Shown here in pieces: positions 13,605 through 25,139 of a DNA stretch of 61,191 bases. Both the position numbers and the translations under genes were made by a program. The stretch is from contig JACIYH010000005.1 in assembly GCA_014360055.1 (NCBI GenBank), positions 1-61,191 of the forward strand, written 5' to 3'. Source of the DNA: Bacillota bacterium. Its GTDB lineage: Bacteria > Bacillota > Sulfobacillia > JACIYH01. The notes beneath the pieces are model-generated. The model had not been told where the DNA came from. It made no database searches and saw nothing but the letters and a program-made list of their open reading frames with translations. Each line of letters opens with the position of its first letter. Positions within the stretch are counted from its first letter, which is position 1.

Positions 13605-14672
13605 GTGAAGTGCACCGTATGCAGGAGTGAGGCGGAGGTCAGGCTGCCCGCTCACAACAGCAAGTTTTGCCGGGAACACTTCGACCAGTTCTTCCTGCGC
13701 CAGGTGGAGAAGGCCATCTCGGGCTTCCGCATGCTGGAGCGCGGCGCCCGCGTGCTGGTAGGCGTGTCGGGAGGTAAGGACTCTCTTACCGTGGCCGATG
13801 TGCTTGACCGGCTCGGTTACGAGGTGGTGGGGCTGCACCTCGACCTGGGCATCGACAGCGATGACTTCTCGGCTGCATCCCGGGCGGCCAGCGAGCGCCT
13901 CTTCTCCCGCCTGGGGAGGCCGCTCCACATCGTCTCCCTGCGGGAGGAGTTCGGTCGCGCCGTGCCCGAGGTGGTGGGGCGGTTCAGCCGGCCCTGTGCC
14001 GTGTGCGGCCTGACCAAACGGCACCTCCTCAACGAGTTCGCCTGGTGTCACGGCTTCGACGCCCTGGCCACCGGCCACCACCTGGACGACCTGTCCGCCA
14101 CTCTGCTCGCCAACGTGCTGCGCTGGGACACCAAGTACCTGCGCAAGACCCTGCCGGCCCTGCCCGGCGGGGAAGGCCTGGCGGCCAAGATCAAACCGCT
14201 GGCCTTCCTCACGGCGGAGGAGATCAGGACTTACGCTCGCTTCCGCAACATAGAACCGGTGCCGGGCAACTGCCCGTATTCTCAGGAAGCCAAGTTCAAG
14301 AGGTACGCGCGGCTCCTGGACGCCATCGAACGGGACTCGCCGGGGACCAAGCGGGCTTTCTACGCCAACTTCCTGCGCGTCGCCCACCTCTTTGCCGCCC
14401 CCGCCTCCACCGGCGTGGCGACGCCCGGCCCCACCGTCACGGCCGGACGTGCTGCGGGCGCGGCGGCCGCCGCCCCTGCCCCGGCCGCCTCTCCCCCTGA
14501 GGCCTGCTCCGGGGGACTCACCCTCGGCAGAGTGGCTGCGCCGGAGTTGCCAGCCCTGCGTCACTGTCGTGTGTGCGGCTCGCCCACGCCCTCGGAGGTG
14601 TGTGCCTTCTGCCGCATCTGGCGTCCCCAGGCGGCGGTGCCCCGCTGCAACGGCCCGTCACCTGATCCCTGA
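13605..14672 (+). CDS. ttuA: TtuA/Ncs6-type tRNA 2-thiolation protein
   Basis: A 355-residue PP-loop ATPase. An N-terminal zinc site (CxxC at 3-6, then C22 and H25), the PP-loop SGGKDS (55-60), an internal CAVCGLTKRHLL and GHHLDDLSATLLANVLR are followed by a C-terminal second zinc finger with two CxxC pairs. This double-zinc architecture is that of TtuA, which thiolates U54 of tRNA in thermophiles, and of Ncs6, rather than TtcA. An unusual Ala/Pro/Gly-rich insertion of about 45 residues separates the catalytic domain from the C-terminal zinc finger. No TtuB-like sulfur carrier gene is adjacent. GTG 13605 is the only start that keeps the first zinc site. Confidence 0.82.
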   Translation: MKCTVCRSEAEVRLPAHNSKFCREHFDQFFLRQVEKAISGFRMLERGARVLVGVSGGKDSLTVADVLDRLGYEVVGLHLDLGIDSDDFSAASRAASERLFSRLGRPLHIVSLREEFGRAVPEVVGRFSRPCAVCGLTKRHLLNEFAWCHGFDALATGHHLDDLSATLLANVLRWDTKYLRKTLPALPGGEGLAAKIKPLAFLTAEEIRTYARFRNIEPVPGNCPYSQEAKFKRYARLLDAIERDSPGTKRAFYANFLRVAHLFAAPASTGVATPGPTVTAGRAAGAAAAAPAPAASPPEACSGGLTLGRVAAPELPALRHCRVCGSPTPSEVCAFCRIWRPQAAVPRCNGPSPDP

Positions 14673-15167
14673 CCGCCCACCCTCTGCTCCCCCGGTTGTT
14701 CTTCAGTTCTTCCCGGTGAAAAAGGCCGCGGGTGCGGGAAGTACCGCAGGTGCCGGGAGTGCCATCACGGTGACAGTCCAGGCGGCTTCGGTGCTGTCAA
14801 GTTCTTGACTGTGGTGGCCCTCCGACCGTCACCTGACCGACAGTGGTCGCTTCACCAGCCGCAGAACCGTCACCATAATGCCCATAGTGGTCGCTTTATG
14901 TATCCAGGTGGCCGCCCACGGAGGGTTCGCTGTCCCCCCATTGTCAGGACTCTGACAGTGCGATGCTCCACCTCACTGTCAGCCCAATGGCCATCCGGCG
15001 GTACCTCGGCCGGCGCACGCCCGGAGTGCCGGGAGACCCTTGAAACCAGGCGTACGCTGACGCCTCCTCTCGTCGTCCCCCCGAATTGAAGGTAGGAACT
15101 GGCGTGGTGGCGAATCATTCCTGCGATGCAGGGGCCGCCGCGGCCCCAGGGAATGGGGGGTTGCCTC
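14673..15167 (+). other. Noncoding stretch rich in CTGTCA/TGACAG words and imperfect repeats
   Basis: No convincing gene lies here. TGACAG or its complement occurs at 14771-14776, 14794-14799, 14953-14958 and 14976-14981. TTGTCAG and CTGACAG form a dyad at 14941-14958. The pair CCGTCACC...AGTGGTCGCTT occurs twice (14826-14852 and 14867-14896). A 6-base stem AGGCGT/ACGCCT sits at 15048-15065. The base composition is less GC-rich than the flanking genes. It could be a multi-site regulatory region for the CBS-ACT gene or the residue of a lost element. Confidence 0.5.
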
Positions 15168-15809
15168 ATGCTGGTGCGTGACCGTATGTCCAGGGACCTG
15201 GTGACGGTGTCGCCTTCCACGCCGGTTCCGGAGGCGCTGCGCATCATGGAGCAGAGGCGTATCCGGCGCCTGCCTGTGGTCCGGGAAGGCAAGCTGGTGG
15301 GGATAGTCACGTTGCTGGATCTGTTCCGCGTTTCCCCCTCACCGGCCACCAGCCTAAGCATCTGGGAACTCAACTACCTGATCGCCCGCCTGCCCGTGGA
15401 AGAGGCCATGACCCGCAAGGTGATCACGGTGTCGCCCGATGCCACCCTGGAGGAGGCGGCCCTCCTCATGCGTCAGCACCGGGTGGGAGGGTTACCGGTG
15501 GTGGAGGACGGCCGGCCGGTGGGGATCATCACGGAGACCGACATCTTCGAGACCTTCCTGGATCTGATGGGCCTCCGGCAGCCCGGCCTGCGTGTCACCC
15601 TGGTGCTCCCGGATCGGGTGGGCATGCTGGCGGCAGTCACCGCCATCTGCCGCGATCACGGGGTTAACATCTTGAGTGTGGCTTCCTTCCCACCCCACGA
15701 AGGCGAGGCGGAGATCATCCTGCGCCTGGCCGGGGAGCGGGCACGGGAGGCCGTGGATGCCATCCGTGACGCCGGTTATCGGGTGATGGACGTCCGCGAC
15801 AGCCGTTAG
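15168..15809 (+). CDS. CBS-CBS-ACT domain protein (AcuB-like)
   Basis: A 213-residue protein: two CBS motifs (residues about 5-60, VRDRMSRDLVTVSPSTPVPEAL...; and about 72-128, VEEAMTRKVITVSPDATLEEAA...) followed by a C-terminal ACT domain (GLRVTLVLPDRVGMLAAVTAICRDHG...). AcuB-type proteins have this order and bind adenine nucleotides and possibly an amino acid, acting as regulators. ATG 15168 follows GGGGGG at a spacing of about 8; ATG 15153 and an earlier start are possible. The gene stands alone between two noncoding gaps, and its partner is unknown. Confidence 0.85.
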   Translation: MLVRDRMSRDLVTVSPSTPVPEALRIMEQRRIRRLPVVREGKLVGIVTLLDLFRVSPSPATSLSIWELNYLIARLPVEEAMTRKVITVSPDATLEEAALLMRQHRVGGLPVVEDGRPVGIITETDIFETFLDLMGLRQPGLRVTLVLPDRVGMLAAVTAICRDHGVNILSVASFPPHEGEAEIILRLAGERAREAVDAIRDAGYRVMDVRDSR

Positions 15810-17618: not shown

Positions 17619-18170
17619 ATGAGACCGGCGCTGCTGGCCGTGTTCTTTGCCCAGGGGGTGGGGTTTCCCGTTCCCCTGGCGGTCGCCTTCGGCCTGCTGG
17701 GCGATCTGGTGCTGCGGGGCCGCGTGGGGGCGGTGGAGGGTTTTGCCCTATGCCTGGGGGCCAGCTGGGTGGGTAACCTCACCGGGTATGCCCTGGCCCG
17801 GCTGGGGAAAGGGTGGGCCCTGCGGCTGACGAACAGCCCGCTGCGAGGGTGGGGCGATGCGGAATCCACTTCCCGGTACACCCGCGTGCGCCGCCACTTC
17901 TGGTGGGTTCTCACGGTGGCGCGCTGGACGGGCGGGTATCCCCAGGTAATCTGGGCCGCCGGGGTCCTGCGCCAACCGCCCCTGCTGGTAGCGGCGGGCA
18001 CGCTGCTCTGCGACGCTGCCTGGGCCGCCTTCTGGTTGTGGGCAGCCGTGCACGGCGTGGCCTGGGCCGGGCGAGTCCCGGTGCTGGCGGCGGGCGTGGC
18101 TGCGGTGGGGCTGGCGGTCGCCGCCGTGGTGTGGGCTGCTGCACGGGGGCGTGATGCTAGAGGGAAGTGA
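17619..18170 (+). CDS. DedA/VTT-like small integral membrane protein
   Basis: A 183-residue hydrophobic protein. GASWVGNLTGYALARLGKG resembles the G-x3-G-Y-x2-G-x2-G stretch of DedA/VTT proteins, and VARWTGGYPQVIWAAGVLR their second conserved region. Hydrophobic segments lie near residues 1-30, 45-60, 120-145 and 150-172. DedA proteins move lipids or protons across membranes, but this one is short and divergent. ATG 17619 follows GGGAGAGT. Its end overlaps the convergent UPF0280 gene by 14 bases. Confidence 0.6.
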   Translation: MRPALLAVFFAQGVGFPVPLAVAFGLLGDLVLRGRVGAVEGFALCLGASWVGNLTGYALARLGKGWALRLTNSPLRGWGDAESTSRYTRVRRHFWWVLTVARWTGGYPQVIWAAGVLRQPPLLVAAGTLLCDAAWAAFWLWAAVHGVAWAGRVPVLAAGVAAVGLAVAAVVWAAARGRDARGK

Positions 18171-18906
18171 GCTGGATGTTGCCCCAGGCCGCCAGGCGGG
18201 TGTCCCTGATGAGCACCGCCCCGGCGAGCCCGGGGATCTGGCGGGCCCGTTCCAGGGCAGCTGTAAGGTCATCCTCGCCGCCCACCAGGTTGCCCAGGCA
18301 GGTGGCCGCCGCATCGGCGAGGGCCCCCGAGGGCGCGACTGCCACGGCGGCATCGGCCTGCCCCAGGCTGAGGGAGTGGCCCCAGCGCCCGGCCGAGGTG
18401 CACACCGCCACCGGTTGCCCGTCGCCGGAGACCAGAAGGCCCGTGCGAAGTGAGAAGGGCGACGTCCCCGCCAGGATGGCCACCCGCCGGGGCCTGTACG
18501 TACAAATGAAGATGTCCCCGCCGTTTTCGACGATCACCTCGCGCACGCTGCCGAGGAGGGCGCGCCCCACCCGTTCGGCCACGGCGCCAGCCACCGCCGC
18601 CATGGGGCCGACCCCAGCGCAGGCGGCCGCCCGCGCCATCTCGCAAACCAGGGGCGGGGCGTGGGCGGGCAGCGTCAGCGGTACCAGGGAGGTCAGGAAG
18701 GCGGGATCCCGCCCGGCGTACCCTTCGATCTCCGACCGGGCGAGGTGCAGTGCCTGTTCTGCCCGTTGGGGCAGGTCGTCCGTCCAGCTGGAACGGTCCA
18801 CCGCCACCCACAGGTCGCTCTCGCCCTCCCGGACCCGGAAGGCCGCCAGGTCGGGACTCCCCATCACGTGCCGGTAAAACCGCTCTTCCACCTGCACGGG
18901 TATCAC
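18157..18906 (-). CDS. UPF0280 family protein (COG2122), probable homocysteine-synthesis partner
   Basis: A 249-residue ApbE-like-fold protein with VPLTLPAHAPPLVCEMARAAACAGVGPMAAVAGAVAE, IVENGGDIFI and SLSLGQADAAVAVAPSGALADAAATCLGN, all typical of COG2122. In Methanosarcina a COG2122 protein is one of the proteins linked to making homocysteine from aspartate semialdehyde and sulfide, together with COG1900. Here it directly follows a COG1900 gene and starts at GTG 18906, overlapping that gene's stop by 4 bases. The shared SAM riboswitch upstream supports a sulfur-amino-acid role. Confidence 0.83.
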   Translation of the reverse strand: MIPVQVEERFYRHVMGSPDLAAFRVREGESDLWVAVDRSSWTDDLPQRAEQALHLARSEIEGYAGRDPAFLTSLVPLTLPAHAPPLVCEMARAAACAGVGPMAAVAGAVAERVGRALLGSVREVIVENGGDIFICTYRPRRVAILAGTSPFSLRTGLLVSGDGQPVAVCTSAGRWGHSLSLGQADAAVAVAPSGALADAAATCLGNLVGGEDDLTAALERARQIPGLAGAVLIRDTRLAAWGNIQLTSL

Positions 18907-20516
18907 CTCTCCCCGGCTGACGCCGCCGGACCGGCGGCCGGTTCCGCAGCACCGGTGGTGGCCGGTTCCGCCGGGTCGACGGCGGCCGGTTCCATCACAC
19001 CGGTTGCCGCGACTCCGCGGGCCTCGGGTACCAGGGCGCCCACCGGGCAGGTATCGGCGCACAGGCCGCAGGCGGTGCACAACTGCGGTTGCCAGACCAG
19101 TTCCCAGCTTCCCCGGTCGAGTTGCAGGGCCCCGGGCAGGCAGACCGCCGTGCAGGCCCCGCAGGCCACGCACAGTTGCCCGTGGAAGATGGGTGTTCCC
19201 CCTGCGGGCGGGGCGGCCACGTGGGCCGGCGCTGCGAGCGCGTGGGCGGGCGGGGTGACCGTGCCGGCGGGCGGGATGGCTGCGCGGGCGGGGGCTGCCA
19301 CGGCGGCAGCGGTTTCGGCCCGCGCGGGCCCGTCCGCGGCGGCGTAGTAGCCGTCTGCTTCCGGGCGGGGAGGAAGGTCGAGGGTGTGGAGGGTTGTGCG
19401 CCAGGGCAGGGGGGCGACGGGCTCGGTGAGGAGGAAGCGGCCGGAGGCCACCCACTCCTTGAGCAGGGCGGCGATCTCCCGGGCCTTGTGCAGGCTGGAC
19501 AGCGGCGCCGCCGGGACCCAGCGGTCGTGGAGGCGCACGCGTCCCGAGCGCAGCTCGGCGTAGCTCACTTCTGCCACCACCGGGCGTTCGCGGTGGGGGT
19601 GGCCGTAGTCCAGGATCACCGTGCGGATATCTTCGTCCCGTACCCCCACCTGGAGGGCCAGTTCTTCGTCCAGCAGGGGGATCGCGATACCCACACCCAC
19701 GAAGAGGGTGACGCCGTAACCGGCGAAGGTGGCGGCGCGCAGGAAACGGGGGTCCATCCCGCGCAGGTCGCCCACCAGGGCCAGGGTGGCCGCCGGCCCC
19801 ACGGGGACGTCCCCGTGCCGCCTCCGGCCGGGGAAATGCTGGGTTCCCTCCCAGGCCACGTAGCCCACGCCTCCGCCCAGGAAGACCCGTGTGCCGATGC
19901 CCACCGTGCGCAGGTGAGGGTCGTTGAGCAGGGGACTCAGCTGGCCCGCGCTGCAGTAGGTGACGTTGCCGAAGCGGGGCAGGAGCTTCCCCATGTAGGT
20001 CCGGATGACCCGGTCCGAGCCGTTGGTGGCAGCGGCGTAGTTCTGGTAGCAGTTGCGGGGGTTGAAGAGGTAGGCCTGGTTCAGACCGTGCAGGCGGATG
20101 TACGTGCGCAGGTGCCGGCGCGGGTAGCAATCGGTGCCGTAGCTTTCGGCTTCCAGGAGGACGGGCTTCCCGGCCACCAGATCTTCGATGACGTGGGCGC
20201 CGCCGTATGCCATGCCCCGGCTGCGACTGAGTTCGGTGGCACCCAGGTAGGCGTCCACCGCCGCCACCCCGGCGTGGGCGGGCACGTCGTTGAGCCGGAC
20301 CGACTGCATCTTGATGGGGGGCTCGCTGTGGCCGAAGTTCAAGAACACTCCCGAGGAGCACATGGGGGCAAAGGTGGCGGTGGTGACCACATCCACCTCC
20401 TGTGCCACCCGGCGGCCCCCTTTTTCCCGTACCAGGGGGATGACTTCCTCGGCGGTAACCACCACCGCCTTCCCCTCCCGGATGCGCTGGTTGATCTCGG
20501 CGAACGTCTTGGGCAA
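18903..20516 (-). CDS. COG1900 homocysteine biosynthesis protein with C-terminal two-cluster ferredoxin domain
   Basis: A 537-residue protein. Residues about 1-380 form the COG1900/DUF39 domain (FAPMCSSGVFLNFGHSEPPIKM, ESYGTDCYPRRH, NPRNCYQNYAAATNGS), with cysteines thought to carry sulfur in the methanogen enzyme. An Ala/Pro-rich linker of about 45 residues leads to two 4Fe-4S motifs (CVACGACTAVC and CTACGLCADTCP) and an Ala-rich tail. In methanogens the ferredoxin partner is a separate protein; here it is fused. The start is TTG 20516 with GGGAGGT seven bases upstream; the longer open frame would run into the riboswitch terminator. Expression should fall when SAM is plentiful. Confidence 0.87.
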   Translation of the reverse strand: MPKTFAEINQRIREGKAVVVTAEEVIPLVREKGGRRVAQEVDVVTTATFAPMCSSGVFLNFGHSEPPIKMQSVRLNDVPAHAGVAAVDAYLGATELSRSRGMAYGGAHVIEDLVAGKPVLLEAESYGTDCYPRRHLRTYIRLHGLNQAYLFNPRNCYQNYAAATNGSDRVIRTYMGKLLPRFGNVTYCSAGQLSPLLNDPHLRTVGIGTRVFLGGGVGYVAWEGTQHFPGRRRHGDVPVGPAATLALVGDLRGMDPRFLRAATFAGYGVTLFVGVGIAIPLLDEELALQVGVRDEDIRTVILDYGHPHRERPVVAEVSYAELRSGRVRLHDRWVPAAPLSSLHKAREIAALLKEWVASGRFLLTEPVAPLPWRTTLHTLDLPPRPEADGYYAAADGPARAETAAAVAAPARAAIPPAGTVTPPAHALAAPAHVAAPPAGGTPIFHGQLCVACGACTAVCLPGALQLDRGSWELVWQPQLCTACGLCADTCPVGALVPEARGVAATGVMEPAAVDPAEPATTGAAEPAAGPAASAGER

Positions 20517-20557
20517 AGCGCTTACCTCCCCCGGACGGGGGACCCCCGGGAGTCCGG

Positions 20558-20592
20558 AAAACGAAAAACGCCTCTCCGAGAGGAAGAGGCGT
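20558..20592 (-). terminator. SAM-controlled intrinsic terminator
   Basis: On the minus strand an 8-base-pair stem ACGCCTCT/AGAGGCGT (20592-20568) is followed by TTTTTCGTTTT, placed just after the 3' arm of the S-box P1 helix. This is the expression platform of the riboswitch. A further inverted repeat (CCGGAC/GTCCGG, 20531-20557) lies between it and the ribosome-binding site. Confidence 0.9.
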
Positions 20593-20605
20593 CCAGCAGC
20601 CGGAC

Positions 20606-20744
20606 CTCTCATCTCTCGGAACCCAGGGTTCCGCAGGAGTTGGCACCGTCATCACGCTGGCGGGCCTTTGCCGTCACCGGCGCGGGCCCCGTGACCGGTT
20701 GCCGGGCTTCATCGGGCCAGTCCCTCCGCCGCTCTGGATAAGAG
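20606..20744 (-). promoter_or_regulatory. SAM-I (S-box) riboswitch aptamer
   Basis: Read on the minus strand it has the S-box landmarks in order: CTTATCCAGAG at the 5' end, GGAGGGACTGGCCC, GATGAAGCCCGGCAACC, then GGTGCCAACTCCTGCGG and GAGATGAGAG at the 3' end. P1 forms between CTCTTATC (20744-20737) and GATGAGAG (20613-20606) with one G-U pair. A terminator follows at once. It controls the COG1900-ferredoxin and UPF0280 genes and should switch them off at high SAM. Confidence 0.96.
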
Positions 20745-20772
20745 TCCCCCGACCATATGTTGTTTGGCGCCC

Positions 20773-20802
20773 ACTATAGCACGCCGCCGCCCCTCCTGTC
20801 AA
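20773..20802 (-). promoter_or_regulatory. Sigma-A promoter for the riboswitch-controlled operon
   Basis: On the minus strand, TTGACA (20802-20797) and TATAGT (20778-20773) are separated by 18 bases. The start of transcription would fall about 20 bases before the S-box P1 helix. Confidence 0.85.
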
Positions 20803-20933: not shown

Positions 20934-20960
20934 TTAGCACTCCGCCCGTGGGAGTGCTAA
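20934..20960 (+). promoter_or_regulatory. CIRCE operator (HrcA-binding site)
   Basis: TTAGCACTC (20934-20942), a 9-base spacer and GAGTGCTAA (20952-20960): a perfect match to the CIRCE consensus. It sits between the promoter and the hrcA start codon, giving autoregulated heat-shock control of the chaperone operon. Confidence 0.98.
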
Positions 20961-20969
20961 GGTGGAACG

Positions 20970-22007
20970 GTGGACGAACGCAAGCGCAGGATACTCCAGG
21001 CCATAGTCGAAGATTACGTGCTCACCGCCGAGCCGGTGGGCTCACGTACCATTGCCCGCAAGTACGGGCTGGGCGTGAGCGCGGCCACCATCCGCAACGA
21101 GATGGCGGACCTGGAAGAAATGGGGTACGTGGAGCAGCCCCATGCCTCGGCAGGGCGCATCCCGTCCGACCGCGGTTACCGGTTTTACGTTGATGAACTC
21201 ATGGAAGTGAAGCCCCTTCCGCCCTGGGTGGTGGAACGGGTGCAGGAGTTGTGCGAGGGGCGCGTCCGGGCCATGGAGGCGGTACTCCAGCAGGTGGCCC
21301 GGCTGCTGAGCGAGGTCACCAACTCCCTTGCCATCCTGGTGGGTCCCCAGGCCGGAGAGATGGTGTTCCGCAGCCTGGACCTGGTTCCGGTGGGGCCATC
21401 CCGTGCCCTGCTGGTGGCGGTGGCCGACCTGGGCCTGCTGGAGTCGGGCATGGTGGAGGTTCCCGCCGACCTAACCCCGGCTGAACTCCACTACATCTCT
21501 CAGGTGCTCACCCGCGGCCTGCGGGGTTTGTCCGTCCAGGCCCTCAGCCACACCATCCTCCGGGAACTGCAGGCCGAACTGGCGCGTTACCGCCAGGTGC
21601 TGGAACAGGTCCTGGAGATACTGGTGGCTTCGGCCCGGGAGCAGGTCCCGGACCGCATGTACCTGGTGGGCCTCAGCACCCTGCTTTCCCAGCCCGAGTT
21701 CCATGACCGGGAACGGCTGCGGGCGGTCATCTCCGTCCTCGAGCAGGAGGTGCTGGCGAAGTACCTCCTCATGGTCTCGACTGAGCGGGAGCAGGAGGCG
21801 GGGGTAACGGTGAGCATCGGCCGGGAGAACCCCCTGGGTGAGGTGCGCGACCTCAGCCTGGTGTTCACCCCGTATCGGGTGGGGGTGTCCCGGGGAAGGC
21901 TGGCCGTGGTCGGTCCCAAGCGCATGGACTACGGCCGCGTGGTGGGGGCGGTGGCGGATTTCGAGCGTCTGCTGAGCGATCTCCTGGGGAGGTGGGCCCT
22001 GGTGTGA
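20970..22007 (+). CDS. hrcA: Heat-inducible transcription repressor HrcA
   Basis: A 345-residue repressor of normal length. The N-terminal winged helix (RKRRILQAIVEDYVLTAEPVGSRTIARKYGLGVSAATIRNEMADLEEMGYVEQPHASAGRIPSDRGYRFYVD in outline) is almost textbook HrcA, and the GAF-like and insertion domains follow. It represses its own operon through the CIRCE site directly upstream, with activity tuned by a chaperonin in known systems. Since the chaperonin here is group III rather than GroEL, which chaperonin keeps HrcA active is an open question. GTG 20970 follows AAGGTGG. Confidence 0.97.
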   Translation: MDERKRRILQAIVEDYVLTAEPVGSRTIARKYGLGVSAATIRNEMADLEEMGYVEQPHASAGRIPSDRGYRFYVDELMEVKPLPPWVVERVQELCEGRVRAMEAVLQQVARLLSEVTNSLAILVGPQAGEMVFRSLDLVPVGPSRALLVAVADLGLLESGMVEVPADLTPAELHYISQVLTRGLRGLSVQALSHTILRELQAELARYRQVLEQVLEILVASAREQVPDRMYLVGLSTLLSQPEFHDRERLRAVISVLEQEVLAKYLLMVSTEREQEAGVTVSIGRENPLGEVRDLSLVFTPYRVGVSRGRLAVVGPKRMDYGRVVGAVADFERLLSDLLGRWALV

Positions 22008-22071
22008 GTGGGGGCCTCACCGCCCCGGGTCCGCGGTACCCGCATTTTTTTTGTGACAGGGAGGTTCTTAG

Positions 22072-23664
22072 ATGGCACTGAAGCAGGTGGCGTCCGGCGC
22101 CGAGATCGACGAAAAGCTCGCGGCCCTTTTGACCAATGCCAACGCGGTACGCGCCATTGCCTCCGCCGTGGAGGGCACCATCGGGCCCAAAGGGCTGAAC
22201 ACGCTGCTCGTCGATCGCTTCGGGGACGTGACCATCACCAACGACGGGGTCACCATCCTCACCAAGATGGACGTCAACCATCCGGCGGCCCGCATGGTCA
22301 TCAACGTGGCGCGGGCCCAGGAGCAGGAGGTGGGTGACGGGACCACCACCGCCACCATCATGGCCGGTGCCTTGCTGACCGAAGGTGTGAACCAGGCGGT
22401 GCGGGGGGTGCCGGTGACGCGCATCATCGAGGGGGTTAAGCTGGGCATCCGCAAGGCCATCGAAGAGGTGGAGGCCAGGTCGCGACCGGTGAGCGGGGTG
22501 GACGATCCCGTCCTGCGCCGGGTGGCTTACGTCTCCGGACGGGAACAGGAGGACATCGCCGACCTGGCGGTCCGGGCGGCCGCCCTGGTGGGCCGGGAGA
22601 AGCTCCTGGACCGGTCCTTCAAGCTTTCCGATACCGTGGTGGCCAAAGCGGGGGCCGAGAACGAGGTCTTCCTGGGCGTGATAGTGGACAAGCAGCGCAC
22701 CAACAAAGAGATGCCCAAAGAGGTAGCGCCGGTGCGGGTGCTGGTGGTGGACGACGCCCTGGAGCCCGAGGAGATCGAGGAGGAGGCCCTGGGCACCGAG
22801 GCGGGTTTCAACCGGTACATGCAGCTCCAGGAGGAATTCCGGGCTAACGTGCGCAAGGTGATCTCCCTCGGGGTCAACCTGGTGGTGGTGGACCGGGGTG
22901 TAGACGAGGTGGCAGAGGAGATGTTCACCGACGCCGGGGTGATGGTGCTGCAGCGGGTTTCCTCACGGGAGTTGCGCCAGGTGGCCGAGCACACCGGGGC
23001 CCGGGCGGTCAAGCGCACCGCCCTGCGTAAGGAGCCGGCGGAACTCGAGAAGTACCTGGGAGCGGCCGACCGGGCCTATGAGGACGAGAAGCTGGAGCAC
23101 GTACGGGTACTGGGTGGCAGGGGCAAGCCCATGGCCACCATCCTGGTGGGTGCTGCCACCCAGGAGGTGGTGGGAGAGCGCGAGCGCATCGCCAAAGACG
23201 CCACCTCCGCAGTGCAGGCGGCGGTGCGGGGGGGCGTAGTCGCCGGCGGCGGGGCCATTGAGTTGGCCGTCTCCCGGGAAGTGGAGAAGCTGCGGGCGAG
23301 CGTACGCGGCATGGCGGCATACGGGGTGGACTGTGTGGCGGAAGCCCTCAAGAAGCCGCTCTCCCAGATCGTGGCCAATGCCGGCTTCAACCCCCTTGAG
23401 AAGGTGGGGGACGTGATGGCCGCCCAGGTGGAGAGGGGTTCCGACTCGCTGGCCGTCGACTGCGACACCGGCGAAGTGGTGGACATGTACGAGGCGGGTG
23501 TCCTTGACCCCACTCCCGTCAAGACCTACGCCCTGCGGGCGGCGGGGGAGATCGCGGAGGCTATCCTGCGCATCGACACCATCATAAAGAAGAAGGATGA
23601 GGGAGGACCCGGCCAGCAGGGCGGAGAAGAAGGCGCGGCCGGCGAGGACGAGCCGGATTTCTGA
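22072..23664 (+). CDS. Group III (archaeal-like, thermosome-family) chaperonin
   Basis: A 530-residue chaperonin of the thermosome/CCT type, not GroEL. GTIGPKGLNTLLVDRFGDVTITNDGVTIL near the N-terminus, the ATPase motif GDGTT (88-92), VVAGGGAIELAVSREV and NAGFNPLEKVGDVMA in the C-terminal equatorial domain, and a built-in apical region where group II proteins have their lid. The C-terminus is Gly/Glu-rich and acidic (GEDEPDF) rather than GGM repeats. Archaeal-like chaperonins in bacteria were described in Carboxydothermus and relatives within the dnaK operon. Here it follows hrcA by 64 bases with AGGGAGGT before ATG 22072, so it is under CIRCE control. It should fold proteins without GroES. 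Confidence 0.95.
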   Translation: MALKQVASGAEIDEKLAALLTNANAVRAIASAVEGTIGPKGLNTLLVDRFGDVTITNDGVTILTKMDVNHPAARMVINVARAQEQEVGDGTTTATIMAGALLTEGVNQAVRGVPVTRIIEGVKLGIRKAIEEVEARSRPVSGVDDPVLRRVAYVSGREQEDIADLAVRAAALVGREKLLDRSFKLSDTVVAKAGAENEVFLGVIVDKQRTNKEMPKEVAPVRVLVVDDALEPEEIEEEALGTEAGFNRYMQLQEEFRANVRKVISLGVNLVVVDRGVDEVAEEMFTDAGVMVLQRVSSRELRQVAEHTGARAVKRTALRKEPAELEKYLGAADRAYEDEKLEHVRVLGGRGKPMATILVGAATQEVVGERERIAKDATSAVQAAVRGGVVAGGGAIELAVSREVEKLRASVRGMAAYGVDCVAEALKKPLSQIVANAGFNPLEKVGDVMAAQVERGSDSLAVDCDTGEVVDMYEAGVLDPTPVKTYALRAAGEIAEAILRIDTIIKKKDEGGPGQQGGEEGAAGEDEPDF

Positions 23665-23705
23665 ATCCCTGCCTGCTGGGCGGGTGTGGCCCGGGAGGGG
23701 TGGCT

Positions 23706-24026
23706 TTGCAGAATCCACCCGCGCCCAACGCTGGTGATCCCCTGGCACCGGCGGGGGAGGATCCCCTGGTACTGAAGGTGGCGGGGTACCTGGCGGACGT
23801 CTTCCGGGAGCGCACCGGGGTGGATGTGCGTTCGGACCCGGCGGCGTGGGACAAAGTCGTGCGGGCGGCACGGCGGGCGCGCCGGGAACTGGGGCGCTCC
23901 ACCGCGTACAATGTGTCCCTTCCGTTCCTGTTGAAGGGGACCGAAGGACCCCTTCACCTGGACGTAGTGATCACCCAGCGCCAGTTCCTCGAACTCATGA
24001 TGGGGGAGGCACCCGAGGAGGCTTAG
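23706..24026 (+). CDS. Mini-DnaK: free-standing subdomain IIB of the Hsp70 ATPase domain
   Basis: A 106-residue protein. Residues about 22-98 align without a gap to one part of the DnaK nucleotide-binding domain (roughly E. coli residues 235-310): [20 protein letters not shown] matches [31 protein letters not shown] matches EAAEKAKIELS, VSLPFLL matches VNLPYIT, and [14 protein letters not shown] matches GPKHMNIKVTRAKL. Nothing else of DnaK is present: no phosphate loops, no substrate-binding domain. The first 20 residues are Pro/Ala-rich. TTG 23706 sits 5-6 bases after GGGAGGGG; GTG 23700 is possible. It stands where dnaK usually does, 3 bases before dnaJ. The frame is intact, so it looks maintained rather than decaying. 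In DnaK this subdomain contacts GrpE and closes over ATP. Confidence 0.82.
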   Translation: [106 protein letters not shown]

Positions 24027-24029
24027 GCT

Positions 24030-25139
24030 TTGCCAGAGCGGCGGAATTACTACGAGATCCTCGGTGTGGGCCGGGATGCCAGCCCCGATGAGATCAAGAA
24101 GGCGTACCGGCGCCTGGCGCGGCAGTACCACCCGGACGCCAATCCCGGGGACCCCACCGCCGAGGAGAAGTTCAAGCAAATAAACGAAGCGTACGCCGTC
24201 CTGTCTGACCCCGAGAAGCGCGCCCGCTACGATGCCTATGGTGAGGTGGGGGGCGCCGCTGACCTGGGGAGTCCTTTTGCCGGCATCCAGGACCTCTTCG
24301 ATATGTTTTTCGGTACCGGTCGCCCCCGGGGCCCGCGGCCGCGGGAACCCAAGCGCGGGGCTGACCTGCGCCTTGACCTGGACATCACGCTGGAAGAAGC
24401 ATTTTCCGGGGTGGAGAAGGAGCTGGAAGTGCCGCGCGTGGAGCGGTGTCCCATTTGCGACGGCACCGGCGCCCGACCCGGTAGTCCGCCGGCGACCTGC
24501 TCCCGCTGCCGCGGGACCGGGCAGGTGGAGACGGTGTCCGACAGCCTGCTGGGGCGGTTCGTTTCCATCCGGACCTGTCCCACCTGCGGCGGTGAGGGCA
24601 CGGTGGTGACCGACCCCTGCCCGGACTGCGGCGGCCTGGGGCGCGTGCGCCGGGTGAGGCACATCCGGGTGAAGGTGCCCGCCGGGGCAGACAGTGGCCT
24701 GCGGTTGCGCCTGGCCGAAGAGGGAGAGCCCGGCACCCGGGGCGGACCGCCCGGTGACCTCTACGTGGACATCCACGTGCGGCCCCACCGGTTCTTCCGC
24801 CGGGACGGTGATGACCTGCACTGCGAAGTGACGGTCAGCTTCATCCAGGCCGCCCTGGGGACCCTGCTCGAGATCCCCACGCTGGACGGGTCCGCCCGCG
24901 TAAAGGTACCCGAGGGTACCCAACCGGGAGCGGTGGTGCGCCTGCGGGGCGCAGGTATGCCCCGGTTGCGCGGGGGGGGCCGGGGGGACCTGCACGTGCA
25001 CCTTGACGTGCGCACACCCACCGGGCTGAGTCCCCGCGAAAAGGAGCTGTTGCGGGAGCTGGCCGCCATCCGCGGCGAGGGCGTGAAGGAGAAGGATAAG
25101 GGGCTATGGGGGCGCGTGAAGGAAGCGTGGAACAGTTGA
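24030..25139 (+). CDS. dnaJ: Chaperone protein DnaJ
   Basis: A 369-residue type I Hsp40: J-domain with the HPD motif (YHPDANPGD), a short Gly/Phe region ([18 protein letters not shown]), four zinc-binding repeats in the C-x2-C-x-G-x-G style ([32 protein letters not shown]) and the two beta-sandwich client domains. It starts at TTG 24030, four bases after the mini-DnaK stop, with GAGGAGG upstream. A complete J-domain implies that a full DnaK exists elsewhere in the genome, or that it works with the mini-protein. Its end overlaps rsmE. Confidence 0.96.

Follow-up and report, generated by a model that had tools for sequence, protein, structure and literature searches.

Direct homocysteine synthesis from aspartate semialdehyde and sulfide, by L-aspartate semialdehyde sulfurtransferase (L-ASST), is poorly annotated and its enzymology is unsolved. 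In Methanosarcina acetivorans, MA1821/MA1822 act with MA1715, which is described as a sulfur-trafficking protein; Cys54 of MA1821 is essential, the NIL domain is said to bind methionine and the CBS domain to allow regulation by SAM, and deletion of L-ASST left growth without methionine unaffected (PMC12068725). Like the genome studied here, that of M. acetivorans also carries MetX/MetY-type genes beside L-ASST, as found in our control searches. In Desulfovibrio vulgaris Miyazaki F, UPF0280/COG2122, DUF39 and NIL-ferredoxin proteins are all needed for homocysteine synthesis (PMC5764234); the three genes lie far apart by locus number, and there is no conventional route. The COG1900 family further includes MMP16/ComF, the coenzyme M synthase of M. 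acetivorans, whose ferredoxin forms an insertion within COG1900 and whose conserved cysteines occupy other positions (PMC12068725).

The window, a stretch of 61,191 nucleotides from an anaerobe-type member of the Bacillota (contig JACIYH010000005.1), bears a two-gene operon of these families on its minus strand, behind a SAM-I riboswitch (S-box; Table 1). Matches to the RNA and protein models confirmed the preliminary description in placing an S-box with a terminator ahead of a COG1900 and a UPF0280 gene; it had overlooked that the ferredoxin is fused and that NIL is missing, both departures from the standard operon. Promoter-like sites are expected in the region about 0.1 times by chance (shuffles). 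The TTG and GTG codons listed are likely the real starts, as Shine-Dalgarno sites precede them, and the UPF0280 gene begins 5 nt past the stop of the first gene. Read between this start and stop, the "COG1900-ferredoxin" is a single fused polypeptide, here termed HcyBio-Fd. An 832-aa open reading frame (18157-20655) was rejected as a single gene, because upstream of UPF0280 its frame is not that of HcyBio. With hrcA starting divergently at 20970, the S-box leader lies within an intergenic region that carries two promoters.

Table 1. Elements of the HcyBio-Fd operon and its leader (positions in the window)
Feature	Position	Strand	Basis and remarks
Sigma-70-type promoter	20773-20802	-	TTGACA-18-TATAGT, TG before -10; consensus scan, 11/12
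SAM-I (S-box) aptamer	20606-20744	-	RF00162, 86.3 bits, E 4.4e-19
Predicted antiterminator	20576-20618	-	P1 3' strand GAGAGAUGAGAG with terminator 5' half CUCUUCCUCUC; ViennaRNA
Intrinsic terminator	20566-20594	-	Hairpin of 12 pairs, then T-rich (U-rich) tail; -17.6 kcal/mol
Shine-Dalgarno of HcyBio-Fd gene	20525-20532	-	GGGGGAGG; by reading the sequence
HcyBio-Fd gene	18903-20516	-	537 aa; likely TTG start at 20516; HcyBio domain and 2x[4Fe-4S] ferredoxin
UPF0280/COG2122 gene	18157-18897	-	246 aa; likely GTG start at 18897; NF003323

The aptamer matches RF00162 over the full model (positions 1-108; cmscan), far above the gathering score of 44.4 bits. Segment 20625-20576 is predicted to fold as an antiterminator at -23.6 kcal/mol, a lower energy than that of the terminator alone (ViennaRNA), and the two folds are predicted to be mutually exclusive, as in an S-box expression platform. 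Counting against this switch, the full-length leader is predicted to lack P1 at its minimum free energy, and a fold with P1 lies about 1.8 kcal/mol higher, a modeled deficit that ligand binding could reverse. At high SAM, the S-box would bind its ligand and P1 would form; stabilized in this way, P1 is predicted to release the terminator, ending transcription before the genes. At low SAM, the 3' strand of P1 would instead pair with the 5' half of the terminator, and the operon would be read. The leader shares its aptamer and its P1/antiterminator/terminator platform with classic S-boxes of Bacillota methionine genes, from which it differs in the family of its target gene. In the open-access papers searched, we found no paper joining COG1900/DUF39 with an S-box, and we claim no priority for S-box control of HcyBio.

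The HcyBio domain (PF01837; COG1900a/DUF39) occupies residues 17-363 of HcyBio-Fd (487 bits; profile positions 1-349 of 349), two 4Fe-4S motifs lie toward the C-terminus at residues ~441-501, and a domain search revealed no CBS domain. Across 39 homologues, 63 alignment columns are invariant, among them Cys53 and Cys130. Their spacing of 77 equals that between Cys54 and Cys131 of MA1821; judged by this spacing, Cys53 is likely the equivalent of the essential Cys54. In an AlphaFold model of HcyBio-Fd, pLDDT is mostly above 90 in the HcyBio domain and ~80-84 in the ferredoxin, and falls below 50 in the linker (396-438). The model suggests a ferredoxin donor tethered by an unstructured, low-confidence linker, and we do not claim a docked interface. 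A fold search with this model returned nothing at E <0.001, high probabilities being confined to matches of the ferredoxin part, and neither sequence nor fold searches matched the HcyBio domain to a solved structure. The UPF0280 protein scores narrowly above the NF003323 cut-off (272.8 versus 271 bits) and has a relative in the PDB (2o34, E 9e-37).

A search of 299 genomes of the phylum found PF01837 in 99; 100 HcyBio loci, the window included, were read. Most loci follow a standard order of HcyBio (~400 aa), NIL-ferredoxin (135-150 aa) and UPF0280; a script detected a ferredoxin-motif reading frame between HcyBio and UPF0280 in 84 of the 100, and a few more were seen by hand. The window and G281 (L046), a class-mate whose fusion is 69% identical to HcyBio-Fd, have no such gap; their ferredoxin is the HcyBio C-terminus, and neither of the two genomes contains a NIL domain. 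Since the ferredoxin is fused and NIL is missing, we regard the system as a variant of L-ASST and not as a standard member. Nine further loci (L037, L058, L074, L075, L077, L088, L094, L102 and L105) have a lone ferredoxin of ~68-84 aa, too short to include NIL, and L081 has no ferredoxin adjoining HcyBio. Fusions without NIL were likewise seen in one Thermotogaceae MAG (L147) and in Aminicenantes MAGs (L149, L169). L152 was dropped from this group; it is a full HcyBio-NIL-ferredoxin fusion, which keeps NIL and thus has a different architecture. In a tree, the window and L046 grouped with full support, apart from the Thermotogaceae and Aminicenantes fusions; an AU test did not reject a single clade of the six fusion proteins, L152 included (p 0.175), which does not establish a single origin.

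A same-strand S-box lies upstream of HcyBio in 69 of the 100 loci, and 65 of these S-boxes are no more than 400 nt from the start; same-strand UPF0280 follows HcyBio in 97, and a hairpin with a U-run separates S-box and HcyBio in 41 of 45 leaders examined. Throughout the phylum, this recurrent link connects the HcyBio family with the demand for SAM. In a set of named genomes, S-box matches were found at 18 of 80 HcyBio loci. Searches for other RNA families at 20 HcyBio loci lacking an S-box returned tRNAs only. At four loci (L110, L086, L087 and L113) another gene comes first after the S-box. In L110 this gene is metX, its coordinates fitting the MetX match. Among the named genomes, the S-box precedes a metH-like gene and then HcyBio in Syntrophomonas sp. 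DTU019 (L159), and a cysK-like gene and then HcyBio in an Elusimicrobia locus (L189), the metH-like and cysK-like genes being named by eye from their translations. The company of metX, metH-like and cysK-like genes in S-box operons points to methionine synthesis.

Other arrangements were also seen. L086, L087 and L113, from three genomes of one family, encode a 285-304-aa protein between S-box and HcyBio, possibly a new pathway partner. An Actinomycetota MAG has a T-box leader upstream of HcyBio (L127, 2580-2903), another RNA control on the family, and a Clostridia MAG (L151) has tandem S-boxes (2530-2634 and 2796-2898) ahead of one HcyBio gene.

The window's own genome (2.7 Mb, 99.76% complete) holds three S-boxes. 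Besides the HcyBio-Fd leader, one on contig C104 precedes metY and metX (TIGR01326, 687 bits versus a cut-off of 495; NF001209, 480 versus 331), and one on contig C8 precedes a gene for a 379-aa protein followed by metK. The only match of the 379-aa protein is to a methanogen methionine synthase model, below cut-off (20.5 bits); by eye it displays the HxC...D...C zinc residues assigned to MesB-type core methionine synthases (PMC7857596), and is putatively core-methionine-synthase-like. A homoserine dehydrogenase was also found, and by gene content the conventional homocysteine pathway is complete.

Based on the riboswitch, the family identities, the operon company and the recurrence across the phylum, we suggest that the operon very probably serves SAM-repressed direct homocysteine synthesis (L-ASST) beside an intact MetX-MetY route. 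The SAM-fed-back homocysteine role put forward in the preliminary description gains further support from the D. vulgaris and M. acetivorans genetics (PMC5764234, PMC12068725). As the MetX-MetY route is intact and under its own S-box, HcyBio-Fd would supplement the supply of homocysteine, or provide it under particular conditions, without being its sole source. In the chemistry that we propose from the Methanosarcina and Desulfovibrio work, HcyBio would load sulfur on Cys53 and pass it to aspartate semialdehyde, and the ferredoxin tethered at the C-terminus, standing in for the separate NIL-ferredoxin subunit, would supply the electrons that reduce a thioaldehyde-level intermediate; UPF0280 would assist the delivery of sulfide-derived sulfur.

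The preliminary description had further supposed that the host may dispense with the O-acylhomoserine route, a supposition that the metY-metX operon and the homoserine dehydrogenase leave unsupported. Were the HcyBio operon the only or main homocysteine route, with acylhomoserine genes absent or irrelevant, this would agree with many relatives: among 80 HcyBio genomes of the phylum, MetY is missing in 47 and MetX in 66, and 14 of the 33 with an OAH sulfhydrylase have MetX too. G020 and G063 (both ~98% complete) combine HcyBio and an S-box with the lack of MetX, MetA or a strong Cys/Met PLP enzyme, so that the HcyBio operon is their only recognized homocysteine source; G063 also lacks homoserine dehydrogenase and may therefore be auxotrophic. 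From such searches the acyl route appears missing in these two relatives and, less firmly, in G281, which lacks MetX and MetA and has one PLP enzyme of ambiguous type. For the window's genome, however, the sole-route reading is contradicted in gene content, and we consider it quite improbable. An S-box on an HcyBio operon thus does not imply loss of the classical route, a tempting error that the genome corrects. As jointly adverse to its proposal, the preliminary description had named a complete conventional pathway and a different, demonstrated role for HcyBio-Fd and UPF0280; the pathway is present, and no such other role emerged.

Beside a complete acyl route, a further homocysteine enzyme seems redundant, which, with MMP16 in the same family, could mean that HcyBio-Fd makes another thiol, such as a coenzyme-M-like compound, and that SAM control reflects shared sulfur demand only. 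This is highly improbable, given that HcyBio-Fd scores 130.4 bits against the 363.95-bit cut-off of TIGR03287 (methanogenesis marker 16), has cysteines of the COG1900a type and a C-terminal ferredoxin, unlike MMP16/ComF, and belongs to a family whose S-box operons include methionine genes and which is the only recognized homocysteine route in G020 and G063. The complete acyl route and the genome-wide absence of NIL would also suit decay, HcyBio-Fd being a relic beside a sufficient MetX-MetY route. We give this very little credence, as the leader keeps its riboswitch, promoter and terminator intact and the protein its conserved residues and two 4Fe-4S motifs, G281 retains the fusion without MetX or MetA, and NIL-less forms recur in other lineages.

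Direct homocysteine synthesis by a NIL-less system is further suggested by G020, a ferredoxin-only locus, and G063, with no adjacent ferredoxin: having HcyBio and an S-box without the acyl route, they make NIL-less forms look functional, which supports such function and does not prove it. With neither NIL nor CBS, product feedback in the window's system appears to rest on RNA. CBS domains were confirmed on archaeal HcyBio proteins (L167, L172). An exchange of protein for RNA feedback is weakly suggested at most; the locus counts show no exchange, an S-box being present at 10 of 12 NIL-less and 59 of 88 other loci, with no significant link (Fisher p 0.33). More tentatively than the homocysteine role itself, and at somewhat below even chances, we propose a self-contained, NIL-free L-ASST in which the sulfur-inserting domain carries its own tethered electron donor and feedback has moved from the protein sensors proposed for methanogens, CBS (SAM) and NIL (methionine), to the SAM riboswitch; NIL would then be regulatory, not catalytic. 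The requirement for NIL-ferredoxin in D. vulgaris counts against activity of a NIL-less enzyme, and the complete acyl route against assuming flux through HcyBio-Fd.

The system shares with M. acetivorans L-ASST the HcyBio/COG1900a domain, a ferredoxin, the UPF0280 partner and the two cysteines spaced by 77, but lacks CBS and NIL, has its ferredoxin fused in cis, is under S-box RNA and includes UPF0280 in the same operon. It resembles the D. vulgaris system in being bacterial and built from the same families, but forms one operon and combines absence of NIL with presence of a conventional route. Judged from sequence, HcyBio-Fd would represent a novel architecture of L-ASST, under a riboswitch that recurs in the family, and the natural NIL-less and fused forms offer a simple two-gene system for probing the roles of NIL and ferredoxin.

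Several neighboring features merit mention. A CIRCE-like inverted repeat, TTAGCACTC-N9-GAGTGCTAA, precedes hrcA (region 20934-25139, plus strand), downstream of which lie genes for a thermosome-like (Group III type) chaperonin (22072-23664) and dnaJ (24030-25139), both on the plus strand; the ORFs scanned from hrcA to dnaJ include neither grpE nor dnaK. Group III chaperonins have been reported inside DnaK operons (PMC5635000). On contig C8, upstream of the metK operon, flgF/flgG-like genes of the flagellar rod directly follow a c-di-GMP-I riboswitch (L014, 5415-5330, minus strand; 79.8 bits). The gene of a TtuA-like tRNA 2-thiolation protein (13605-14672, plus strand) lies within a few kb of the HcyBio-Fd operon. 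About 2.3 kb beyond UPF0280, on the opposite strand, a gene (15126-15809, plus strand) encodes a free-standing CBS-CBS-ACT protein, possibly a small-molecule sensor.
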